Shown here in pieces: positions 1 through 40,024 of a stretch of 64,000 bases of DNA (its first letter is position 1; each line of letters starts with the position of its first letter). The DNA comes from Natronoglycomyces albus (GTDB taxonomy: Bacteria; Actinomycetota; Actinomycetes; Mycobacteriales; Micromonosporaceae). The stretch covers positions 1 through 64,000 of the forward strand of contig NZ_CP070496.1 in assembly GCF_016925535.1 (NCBI RefSeq). Reading direction: 5' to 3'. The notes under the pieces were generated by a model. The model was not told the DNA's origin and ran no database searches. It worked only from the letters and a program-made list of their open reading frames with translations. A program made the position numbers and the translations under genes.

Positions 1-2217
1 GTGACTGATTTGGATCTGGCCAGTGTGTGGACCCATGTCACCGCAGACTTGGCGGAGTCGTCATTGACGCGACAACAGCAGGCGTGGGTACGCCTGACTC
101 AGCCGGTCGTGCTGATCGACGATACCTTCATTATCGCCGCCCCCGACAAGTTCGCGCGTCAGGCGTTTGAGACCAAGCTGCGTAACACTCTCAACGACGC
201 GATCTCTCGCCGCGTCGGAAGACCGGCCCAAATCGCCGTGACCGTGCAAAAGTCGACCAATGCTCCTGCCTCTGCGGGTTTCACCGCCCCTGTGAATGTT
301 CCCGCCCAAAGCCCTTCTCCCAGTTCGCCGCCGCCCAATAACGATTCGAGTGGCACCACAGCGTCCACGGGTTCTCAGCTGTCGGCGGCCCCAGTCAGTC
401 CCGCCGCTACGCAGCCGGCGGCCGAGGAGGACCTAAACGCTGGTCAGCCAGCGGCTGCTTCGATTCCGCTCCAGGGAGGCGAGCCGCTCGGCAGCTCACC
501 GGTGAGCGAGGATCTCGCCCACGAGACACCGGCCGATGAGGCACCTATTAATAGAGTGTCGTCTGAGGCTGGGGCAGGGCCATATCGTGAACCTGCCTCG
601 GAGGCACCGTCCTCACCGGCCCCCAGCGATCCGAGCCACCGGGAACGCGGATCACTGCCGCCTGTGTCCCCGCCCGCGACCACCGCCGAACGTCCCTTGC
701 CAGGGGAACTGCCCGCACCCCGCCATGAGAGCGAGCGCCGCACTTCTGCGGAGTATCGGCAACCCGACACCAGCGGTACCACCCATGGCGCATACGAGGC
801 CCGTCAAAATGGCAGGGACGCTTTCGCCGATGCCGACGAGTCCTTTGGTCACCGCAGCCGTGGCATTGACAACGACTCCATGACCACCGGTGGCCCCACC
901 GAGCCCCAACAGCCCCCCAGCCTCTTTGACACGGCCGCCATCGCCGCCATGGGCGGCACTCACGCCTCTGAGCTCAACTCCGACGAGTCTGACCACCATC
1001 CGGATTCGCAAACGGCGAGCGACTACGATTTTGAAGACGCTGCCCGGCAATCCCAGCAACCGGCCACCCACCAGCCACCTGTGGCTCCCCCACCCTCGGC
1101 CGACCCCGATCCCAACCGAACCGGCTCCATCTCCGGGGGCAAGCACTCAGCCTTCACCAAGGTCGAAAATCCCGTCGGTGCTGGCATGAGTCGCCTCAAC
1201 CCGCGCTACAACTTCGATACCTTCGTGATCGGATCGTCGAACCGGTTCGCGCACGCCGCCGCCGTCGCCGTTTCCGAAGCTCCGGCAAGGGCCTACAACC
1301 CGTTGTTCGTCTACGGGGGCTCTGGTTTGGGTAAGACTCACCTCTTGCACGCCATCGGGCATTATTCGCACAAGCTCGGCCACGCCTCGGTGGTCCGATA
1401 TGTGTCGACCGAGGAGTTCACCAACGACTTCATCAACTCTTTGCACGACAAGCGTCCGCAGGCATTCCAGCGCCGATACCGCGACGTCGACATTTTGCTC
1501 ATTGACGACATCCAGTTCTTGGAACGTGCCGAACGCACCCAGGAAGAGTTCTTCCACACGTTTAACACGCTGCACAACGCGAACAAGCAGATCGTGATCT
1601 CCTCTGACCGGTCGCCCAAACAGCTGCAAACGCTGGAGGATCGACTGCGGACCCGCTTCGAGTGGGGGTTGCTAGCCGACATTCAGCCCCCAGATTTGGA
1701 GACGCGGATCGCGATCTTGCAAAAGAAGGCCGCGCAGGACGAGCTGTCGGTGCCCTTTGCGGCGCTGGAGTTCATCGCCTCCCAGATTCACCACTCGATC
1801 CGGGAGCTGGAGGGTGCCCTGATCCGAGTAACGGCCTATGCCAGCCTCAATCAGAAGCCCGTCGATGTCAGCCTCGCCCAAGAGGTGCTGCGTGATTTCA
1901 TCCCCGAGGGGGAAGCGCCAGAGGTCACGGTTGACCAGATCGTGCAGGCCTCCGCCGACTACTTCGGGGTCTCAGCCATCGATCTCAAGGGCAATTCACG
2001 TTCCCGGGTCTTGGTGAGTGCCCGCCAGGTGGCCATGTACTTGTGCCGGGAGTTGACCGACCTGTCACTGCCTCGGATCGGCCAGGCGTTCGGGGGTCGT
2101 GATCACACGACCGTCATGCACGCGAATCGGAAGATCCGTAAGCAGATGGCGGAGCGTCGGGCGCTGTACAACCAAATCGCGGAGCTCACCAACCGGCTCA
2201 AACAGCAGGGCAACTAG
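1..2217 (+). CDS. dnaA: Chromosomal replication initiator DnaA
   Basis: DnaA is the AAA+ ATPase that binds DnaA boxes in oriC, opens the duplex and loads the helicase. The protein has 738 residues and starts with GTG at base 1. Domain I covers about residues 1-90. A very long Pro/Ser/Thr-rich domain II linker follows, about residues 90-395. The AAA+ domain carries Walker A GGSGLGKT (439-446) and Walker [10 protein letters not shown] (498-506). Domain IV carries the DnaA-box recognition signature [10 protein letters not shown] (698-707). The linker makes it much longer than the 450-520 residues usual outside actinobacteria; long linkers are known in actinomycete DnaA. The origin with its DnaA boxes lies directly downstream. 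Confidence 0.98.
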
Positions 2218-2937
2218 AGGTTCATCGAAGCGGTTGGCTCAAATGGGCCCTGTTGCGGTGGGCACGAGGTTATCCACAGCTGTGAGTTACTTTCATCTGC
2301 TTTGCGGCTCAATGTCCCAATTCCGGGAAGCCCGCATATGCTTTCACCTGCAAATTCATTGCCCACAGGCTCTTTATCCACAGGGAGTCGAAATTGTGGA
2401 TAAGCAATTGCGAAAGCGATTCACTAAAAGAAATACAATGGCCTTCACCACATTATTGCCTTTATCGACAATCATTCATAATTTCCATCCACTGTGGCCT
2501 GTGGATAAAATGTGGATAACCTGTGGATAAAGTGCCAAAATCTGTGGACGGAGTGTGGATAACCTGTGGACAAGGCTTAGAACCGTGATTTCATTTCATG
2601 TTTGGCCTGTGCAAAAGGGTGTGGATAACCTGTGGAAAAGCTGTGGAAAAGCTGTGGAAAAGCTGTGGATAAAATGTGGAAAACTTTGCGAGCAAATCTC
2701 ACTGTGGATAAGTTCGGGGTTATCCACATTTTATCCACACGAACATCCACAACTAAAAAATCAGGCTAGCAGTGAAAACAGCTGTTTTCCACAGTTTCCA
2801 CAGGACCGATGATGACGACGACAGTTATATCTAAGTTAAGAATTTGTAGTAACGGTGTGGACAACCGACCCCCAGGGGGCTGTTGGGTGGCCATAGCTGA
2901 AACGTTCTACTCTTGAGGCACGAAGTTGGAGAGTGAC
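2218..2937. other. oriC: Chromosomal origin oriC with 12 perfect DnaA boxes
   Basis: The dnaA-dnaN intergenic region contains twelve perfect DnaA boxes. Four read TTATCCACA, at 2270, 2374, 2720 and 2731. Eight read TGTGGATAA, at 2395, 2500, 2511, 2522, 2554, 2620, 2664 and 2703. Several one-mismatch variants (TGTGGAAAA, TGTGGACAA) lie among them. AT-rich stretches that could unwind lie at about 2404-2490, between box clusters, and at 2820-2855. Position, box density and neighbours identify it as oriC. The open frames that cross it are low-complexity readings of the boxes and not genes. Confidence 0.95.
2620..2683 (+). repeat. Six DnaA-box-like repeats at exact 11-bp period
   Basis: Boxes of the form TGTGGA(T/A)AA begin at 2620, 2631, 2642, 2653, 2664 and 2675, all in one orientation and exactly 11 bp apart. 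The units at 2620 and 2664 are perfect boxes; the other four carry A instead of T at position 7. A second phased run begins at 2500, 2511 and 2522, all perfect. This places all units on one face of the helix, which suits cooperative DnaA filament formation. That role is inference. Confidence 0.85.
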
Positions 2938-4080
2938 ATGAAGTTTCAAGTTGACCGAGATGTGTTCGCCGAAGCCGTCTCTTGGACCGCCAAGAGCCTG
3001 CCTGCCCGTCCCTCCGTACCCGTCCTTGCCGGAGCCCGGCTTACGGTCGGGGAAGGCTCCCTGACCATCTCAGGGTTCGACTACGAGATCTCGACCGAAA
3101 TCAACCTCGACATCTCGGGCGAATCGTCCGGATCGACCCTGGTGTCGGGCAAGCTGCTGGCAGAGATTGTCAAAGCGCTGCCCAACAAGCCCGTCGACTT
3201 CCAATCCGAGGGCTCGCACGCCGAACTAACCTGCGGGTCCGCCCGCTTCACGCTCCCCACCATGCCGCTAGAGGACTACCCCAACCTCCCGGCCATGCCC
3301 GGCACCATCGGCACTGTCGACGCGACAGTGTTCGCCAATGCCGTAGCGCAAACGGCCATCGCCGCTGGCAAAGACGAAACTCTCCCGACCATGACCGGCG
3401 TTCAGGTGGAAATGACCGGATCCGGCCTCGCCCTGTTGGCCACCGACCGCTATCGCATGGCTATCCGCGACATTGAGTGGTCGCCCACCGAGAGCGACAC
3501 CAATGTGACCGTCCTCGTCCCGGCCAAAGCCCTCTCTGACGCTGCCCGTTCGTTGGGAGCACTCGCCGGGCCGATCACCATTCACGTCCCCGAGGAGAGC
3601 AACGGGCCGGTCGGCATGATCGGGTTCGCCGCTGGCGGTCGGAGGACGACCTCGCGAGTCCTCGATGGCCAATTGCCCAAGCTTCGCTCACTTGTGCAGC
3701 CGTCGTATCCGACCAAGCTGCGTGTTCGCACTTCCGAGCTCATCGAAGTTGTGCGCCGCGTGGCACTGGTCACCGACCGCAACAGCCAGGTCCGCCTGCA
3801 ATTTGGCGAAGACGGCCTCATCATCGAAGCCGGAGGGGCAGAGGACGCGAAGGCCTCTGAGGCAATGGATTGCCTCTACGAGGGCGAGCCAGGTCGCATG
3901 GCGTTTAACCCTGGCTACCTCATCGAAGGTCTGCAGGCGCTTTCCTCACCCACCACAGTTTTCTCCATTAAGGACACCGCAAAGCCGATCGCGCTTTCCG
4001 GGGAAGCCCAGTCAGACGATGACGAGACCGACTACAGCGGGTACCTGTACATGCTGCAGCCGCTGCGGTGGGACATCTAG
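2938..4080 (+). CDS. dnaN: DNA polymerase III sliding clamp, beta subunit
   Basis: The beta clamp forms a ring around DNA that tethers DNA polymerase III and other replication and repair proteins. The protein is 380 residues long with the three-fold repeated clamp architecture (about 1-120, 125-245, 250-380) and ends in the usual MLQPLR-type C-terminus. I chose ATG at 2938 because GGAG at 2928-2931 lies six bases upstream. An in-frame TTG at 2926 would add only four residues and has no ribosome binding site. The gene follows oriC, as in most bacteria. Confidence 0.97.
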   Translation: MKFQVDRDVFAEAVSWTAKSLPARPSVPVLAGARLTVGEGSLTISGFDYEISTEINLDISGESSGSTLVSGKLLAEIVKALPNKPVDFQSEGSHAELTCGSARFTLPTMPLEDYPNLPAMPGTIGTVDATVFANAVAQTAIAAGKDETLPTMTGVQVEMTGSGLALLATDRYRMAIRDIEWSPTESDTNVTVLVPAKALSDAARSLGALAGPITIHVPEESNGPVGMIGFAAGGRRTTSRVLDGQLPKLRSLVQPSYPTKLRVRTSELIEVVRRVALVTDRNSQVRLQFGEDGLIIEAGGAEDAKASEAMDCLYEGEPGRMAFNPGYLIEGLQALSSPTTVFSIKDTAKPIALSGEAQSDDDETDYSGYLYMLQPLRWDI

Positions 4081-39995: not shown

Positions 39996-40024
39996 TTATC
40001 CACAGGCCGAGCGAGTTATCCACA
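39996..40024 (+). promoter_or_regulatory. Twin perfect DnaA boxes before the DUF4192 gene
   Basis: Two perfect TTATCCACA boxes lie at 39996-40004 and 40016-40024, in one orientation and 20 bp apart, about two helical turns. They end 54 bases before the DUF4192 start. I found no other perfect boxes outside oriC in the window. They may place the gene under DnaA control or titrate DnaA. The surrounding 420-base spacer holds no gene. Confidence 0.75.

Follow-up and report, generated by a model that had tools for sequence, protein, structure and literature searches.

A dense array of co-oriented DnaA boxes at 11-bp spacing in the dnaA-dnaN intergenic region of Natronoglycomyces albus

Layout of the dnaA-dnaN interval

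The window, the whole 64,000-nucleotide stretch of N. albus DNA analyzed here, opens with dnaA, followed by dnaN, a 6-phosphogluconate dehydrogenase-like gene, a recF-like gene and gyrB, the names recF and gyrB being presumed from the translations. The gap between dnaA and dnaN is the chromosomal oriC, as had been recognized in an earlier sequence-only reading, and its TGTGGA cores are divided into 15 on the forward and 7 on the reverse strand (Table 1). The DnaA encoded in the window has its best named match in Glycomyces sp. L485 (87%), and GC skew around the origin is weak and noisy.

Table 1. Features of the origin region (window coordinates; + forward strand, - reverse strand)
Feature	Position	Strand	Evidence or remark
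dnaA (initiator)	1-2217	+	ORF; Pfam Bac_DnaA and Bac_DnaA_C
oriC, dnaA-dnaN intergenic region, 720 bp	2218-2937		Flanking ORFs; 22 TGTGGA cores, both strands
Outlying boxes 2270 (-), 2374 (-), 2395 (+)	2270-2403
Phased block A, boxes 2500, 2511, 2522, each TGTGGATAA	2500-2530	+
Phased block B, boxes 2543 TGTGGACGG, 2554 TGTGGATAA, 2565 TGTGGACAA	2543-2573	+
Phased block C, degenerate unit TGTGCAAAA at 2608 and six boxes 2620, 2631, 2642, 2653, 2664, 2675	2608-2683	+	Homologous to the Glycomyces block plus one unit
Consensus box TGTGGATAA, 28 bp past block C; alignment anchor	2703-2711	+	TGTGGATAA in 20/20 distinct Glycomyces sequences
Opposite-strand boxes 2720, 2731, 2743, steps 11 and 12	2720-2751	-
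Tandem boxes 2785 and 2794, 9 bp apart, no spacer	2785-2802	-	Placed like the two B. subtilis BUS boxes; Bacillus sp. L131 control
Five in-frame DnaA-trio positions, + strand CGA TGA TGA CGA CGA	2807-2821	-	Trio-strand centre C in 5/5
A+T-rich stretch past the trios, taken to belong to the unwinding element	2822-2855		Function inferred
Box TGTGGACAA close to dnaN	2856-2864	+
dnaN (beta clamp)	2938-4080	+	ORF; Pfam

On the forward strand, perfect TGTGGATAA boxes lie at 2395, 2500, 2511, 2522, 2554, 2620, 2664 and 2703, TGTGGAAAA at 2631, 2642, 2653 and 2675, TGTGGACAA at 2565 and 2856, and TGTGGACGG at 2543, giving core-to-core steps, in order, of 105, 11, 11, 21, 11, 11, 55, 11, 11, 11, 11, 11, 28 and 153 bp. 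Twelve units thus fall into blocks of three, three and six boxes separated by gaps, all on one strand and most of them consensus or one base off, and each 11-bp step leaves a 2-bp spacer between 9-mer boxes. The distance from 2565 to 2620 is 55 bp; that from 2522 to 2543 is 21 bp, so that block A is off the 11-bp grid of the remaining units. Units 2631, 2642 and 2653 are identical (TGTGGAAAAGC), and Tandem Repeats Finder reports 11-bp and 22-bp arrays here. The sequence-only reading had listed the nine boxes of block A and of 2620-2675, and their coordinates, 11-bp spacing and single orientation were all correct; the triplet 2543/2554/2565, the degenerate 2608 and the opposite-strand units 2720, 2731, 2743, 2785 and 2794 are additional. 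Its proposal that strong and weak units alternate was wrong, the units from 2620 to 2675 ending in TAA, AAA, AAA, AAA, TAA and AAA.

The pattern TGTGGA-N5-TGTGGA occurs 10 times in the window, always within the dnaA-dnaN gap, against a chance expectation of 0.01 (maximum 1) in 100 dinucleotide shuffles, which bears out the earlier identification of a co-oriented 11-bp DnaA-box array. When boxes were moved by up to 5 bp, 0/300 trials matched the observed 11-bp periodicity, and the best-fitting period of the window boxes is 10.9 bp. The suggestion that the boxes occupy one helix face holds approximately but not as exact geometry, because 11 bp differs from an exact turn: with a turn of 10.5 bp, the drift over five 11-bp steps comes arithmetically to ~86 degrees.

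Box spacing in Glycomyces and other actinobacteria

The genus labeled g12 in our genome set was taken as Glycomyces because the array segment of Glycomyces sp. L485 matches one g12 sequence exactly (L059 and L165 are alike). Twenty distinct sequences from 21 loci were aligned on the last forward-strand box, which follows a 28-bp gap in 21/21 loci; a 22nd locus, L166, was left out as incomplete. Thirteen box positions share the same offsets over 193 bp with no net indel, with TGTGGA in 20/20 sequences at 10 of the 13 positions and in 19/20 at one, the two degenerate positions carrying TGTGGA in 8/20 and 5/20 and TGTG in 20/20. Mean pairwise identity is 0.982 in the cores, 0.828 at box positions 7-9, 0.714 in the linkers and 0.657 in the gaps, so box cores and spacing have been kept while the spacers drift, and orthologous units are more similar (0.783) than neighboring ones (0.473). 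These comparisons argue that the array is old and constrained and that box spacing is under selection. The Glycomyces steps are 12, 11, 20, 11, 11, 43, 12, 11, 11, 12, 11 and 28 bp, and those of the window, with the 2608 unit counted, are 11, 11, 21, 11, 11, (43), 12, 11, 11, 11, 11, 11 and 28 bp. The window array is therefore the Glycomyces array plus one unit, one 12-bp step being replaced by 11+11, and the extra unit of block C was probably gained by tandem duplication in the lineage of the window, whose genus is represented by one species among the genomes compared.

At least three exact 11-bp steps, of which the window has 10, were found in six of 137 other dnaA-matching loci (138 minus L001, the window itself; some are incomplete), with eight in L059, seven in L005, six each in L003 and L023, and three each in L034 and L026. 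Three cores at 11+11 bp, located anywhere in the genome, are present in 39/354 genomes and 11/44 genera of the GTDB-style family, including 21/22 genomes of Glycomyces, with no match to the reversed control pattern among the family matches listed; most genera of the family are without a run of strict cores. In a sample of the phylum, core triplets with 9-14 bp steps occur in 62/396 genomes (reversed control, 11 genomes), and 11+11 triplets beyond the window's own genome are listed for four genomes (G447, G478, G631 and G685), at oriC or not. Among Streptomyces origins, the ten whose dnaA-dnaN interval is complete each have 0 exact 11-bp steps between strict cores (two further loci were incomplete), as does Mycobacterium leprae (L112).

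A broader picture emerges when weaker boxes are included, scored at a threshold of 6 with a position-weight matrix derived from the window and its near relatives. In the origins of 47 other actinobacteria, sampled at about one per genus, same-strand pair distances number 106 at 9-12 bp, 48 at 20-24 bp and 36 at 32-34 bp, with just 6 pairs at 13-19 bp and 5 at 25-31 bp; other actinobacterial genera thus favor 9, 11-12, 20-24 and 32-34 bp. The pattern is less sharp in the family's 27 other genera (e.g., 15 pairs at 13 bp and 12 at 28 bp), and in the ten Streptomyces loci 24 pairs fall at 26 bp, off an 11-bp grid. All seven groups pass the jitter test (0/300) with best periods of 10.6-11.0 bp, related sequences within groups not being independent. 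The claim that the array is more regular than textbook actinobacterial origins is sound for strict TGTGGA cores, with 10 steps against none in any of the ten Streptomyces origins, but does not extend to weaker boxes, for which similar spacings occur elsewhere. Related origins lacking the period would have spoken against the sequence-only reading; in Glycomyces and near genera the period is kept, with steps of 11-12 bp.

Dense arrays are not exclusive to the clade of the window. We dropped that phylum-wide claim because origins of a distant family (f33; L179-L181) carry their own dense arrays between dnaA and dnaN, with steps mostly of 11-12 and 20-22 bp, 12-bp steps predominating; in the phylum sample, 21/23 genomes of f33 hold core triplets spaced by 9-14 bp. 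By these comparisons the ~11-bp spacing rule is general, and the dense filling is the unusual part. Separately, dense 11-bp core arrays distant from dnaA were noticed in other genomes of the family (L188, L189 and L190); a Pfam search of seven ORFs flanking them gave no match.

The unwinding module and its C-centred trios

On the dnaN side of the array, where the GC content of 2751-2850 is 0.38, lies a module that by position and frame resembles the basal unwinding system (BUS) of Bacillus subtilis, described as two tandem boxes, a 4-nt spacer and triplets, to which the window triplets correspond in frame, with Bacillus sp. L131 arranged likewise (PMC8287927, PMC10721633). The tandem co-oriented boxes 2785/2794 are 0 bp apart (0-3 bp in the BUS definition), and the triplet repeat begins 4 nt past the second of them (within 16 bp in the definition). 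The third defining feature, at least three consecutive trios 3'-NAN-5' with a central A, is absent: the longest run in the window is 2, and the homologous frame has 0/5, with C in place of the central A of B. subtilis in 5/5 triplets. We therefore do not claim the module as a published BUS. The corresponding place in Bacillus sp. L131 reads CTA CTA GTA CTT CTA, which is the published trio 3'-GAT-5'.

Runs of at least three central-A trios were found in 0/1 origins for the window, 0/21 for Glycomyces, 2/16 for the family, 4/7 for the order and 13/28 for other actinobacteria. Over five triplets in each of 38 actinobacterial origins, the trio-strand centre is A in 81, C in 90, G in 18 and T in 1 of 190, and the third forward-strand base is A in 158/190. 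This strict set was confined to origins with an exact TCCACA-N3-TCCACA; 16 of them, the window included, are from the family of the window, and genus g5 is counted twice. Tallies from a relaxed tandem-box finder were left out, since it chose wrong boxes (8- or 10-bp gaps) in many loci and missed the Bacillus control. C replaces A at the trio centre also in L059, in L148-L168 and in others. No correlation of DnaA residues with trio type emerged: the B. subtilis Asn187 is retained in every case in which the motif was found, and the residue at Arg202 gave no clean split (by eye, with the relaxed finder).

The trio-centre counts agree with an amino-group rule put forward on the basis of mutants of B. 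subtilis, in which a cytosine at the trio centre is reported to give strand separation like adenine and growth better than G or T. These cytosine data agree with working C-type trios, and the model does not explain the conserved forward-strand A. We tentatively raise the possibility, to which we give somewhat less than even weight, that C-type trios are a natural form in which, here and in several other actinobacteria, C replaces the central A with box spacing, triplet frame and the neighboring T (forward-strand A) kept, and that the dense 11-bp array may then provide the docking platform for a melting site richer in G+C. A literature search at title and abstract level returned no report that we recognized as describing the present array or C-centred trios.

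Proposed function and boxes elsewhere in the genome

Published work on bacterial origins provides the frame for interpretation (PMC4285127, PMC6727663, PMC11317965, PMC8203912, PMC4447404, PMC10721633, PMC10316083, PMC8287927). In the left and right DnaA-oligomerization regions of Escherichia coli oriC, which adjoin the unwinding region, arrays of four low-affinity sites are described, in which 9-mers of one orientation recur every 11 bp from centre to centre and leave 2-bp spacers (PMC6727663), and DnaA is reported from E. coli ChIP to prefer pairs 2 or 3 bp apart; unlike the E. coli arrays, the window units are mostly consensus or one base off, and number 12 in three blocks that share a strand, with fewer boxes on the opposite one. 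Thermotoga maritima oriC likewise has co-oriented boxes at 2-bp spacing, at which co-oriented pairs bind best, with an in vitro dimer maximum, but its box consensus differs and just five boxes are described (PMC10316083). The origins of Streptomyces and Mycobacterium share the dnaA-dnaN location and the many boxes, and differ in the published high-affinity box, TTGTCCACA against TTATCCACA in the window.

With several co-oriented boxes at 2-3 bp spacers, a place in oriC beside a putative unwinding element, and spacing conserved in Glycomyces, the array is most likely a DnaA-oligomerization region of the chromosomal origin. We read it best as a dense, unusually fully filled variant of that known kind, because in other bacteria cooperative head-to-tail binding of DnaA requires just such a 2-bp spacer, and from published spacing rules a cooperative DnaA filament would be its likeliest function. 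By extension from other species, DnaA-ATP would bind the strong TGTGGATAA units and recruit neighbors in one head-to-tail direction onto TGTGGAAAA/TGTGGACAA units 11 bp off; the oligomer, with the opposite-strand boxes 2720-2751 and the tandem boxes, would load DnaA onto the triplets and so bring about opening of the A+T-rich stretch next to dnaN. The gaps between the three blocks could host bends or other proteins.

Related spacing occurs elsewhere in the genome, which holds 27 core pairs at 9-14 bp spacing (reversed control, 5); 13 of these are exact 11-bp TGTGGA pairs, 10 in oriC, two upstream of dnaB and one upstream of dnaA. Upstream of dnaB (L169:5122-5335; G000:C1:3885121-3885333) there are eight co-oriented DnaA cores, partly in 11-12 bp steps, and no 9-bp tandem pair was seen there. 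At least two cores lie within 600 bp upstream of dnaB in 30/31 related loci (the best 30 matches plus one; L172 and L191-L220); L216 alone does not fit, and is probably a paralogue. In the control region, upstream of dnaE, 2/25 loci had at least two cores. That control also led us to reject as a conserved element the two consensus boxes 20 bp apart at 39996-40024 of the window (39996/40016), between dnaE and a DUF4192 gene. DnaA boxes have been reported upstream of dnaB in Caulobacter, and a limited literature search found no paper on them in the present group. An 11-bp box pair 262 and 251 bp upstream of dnaA (L170) may serve autoregulation, and a further cluster of nine co-oriented cores, several 12 bp apart (L175; G000:C1:187986-188147), is a possible titration site.

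An alternative that we regard as possible, if short of an even chance, is that the array serves chiefly in timing or titration, holding DnaA in reserve and setting the threshold for initiation, with opening left entirely to the tandem boxes and trios at 2785-2821. The co-oriented lattice upstream of dnaB without a tandem pair and the pair upstream of dnaA are consistent with this, as is the report that B. subtilis needs no more than a few of its boxes, those close to the unwinding site, by which most of the present array could be regulatory; however, the fixed offsets over 193 bp in Glycomyces exceed what titration by box number would need. Control of dnaN transcription by DnaA as repressor or activator, in place of a replication role, fits the location between dnaA and dnaN and the regulation of dnaN by DnaA reported in some species, but the BUS-frame triplets and A+T-rich stretch on the dnaN side are what an origin predicts; we consider it improbable as a replacement, and both roles can coexist. 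Least probable of all is that slippage copied a functionless 11-bp unit: the identical units, the Tandem Repeats Finder arrays and the additional unit would fit, and for that unit slippage stays likely, but for the whole array it is rejected by the Glycomyces comparison, in which orthologous units resemble each other more than neighbors do and cores are conserved far above gaps, and the phasing recurs at a separate locus upstream of dnaB.

Under the preferred reading as an oligomerization region, a natural origin would write the spacing rule of the DnaA oligomer almost without gaps and keep it genus-wide, making the filament model testable by re-spacing. The C-centred trios, in turn, make the question raised in PMC10721633, whether DnaA homologues recognize other bases, testable with natural sequences. 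Lastly, initiation and the expression of initiation proteins may be tied together in this group by one spacing rule, as the matching arrays upstream of dnaB and dnaA suggest.
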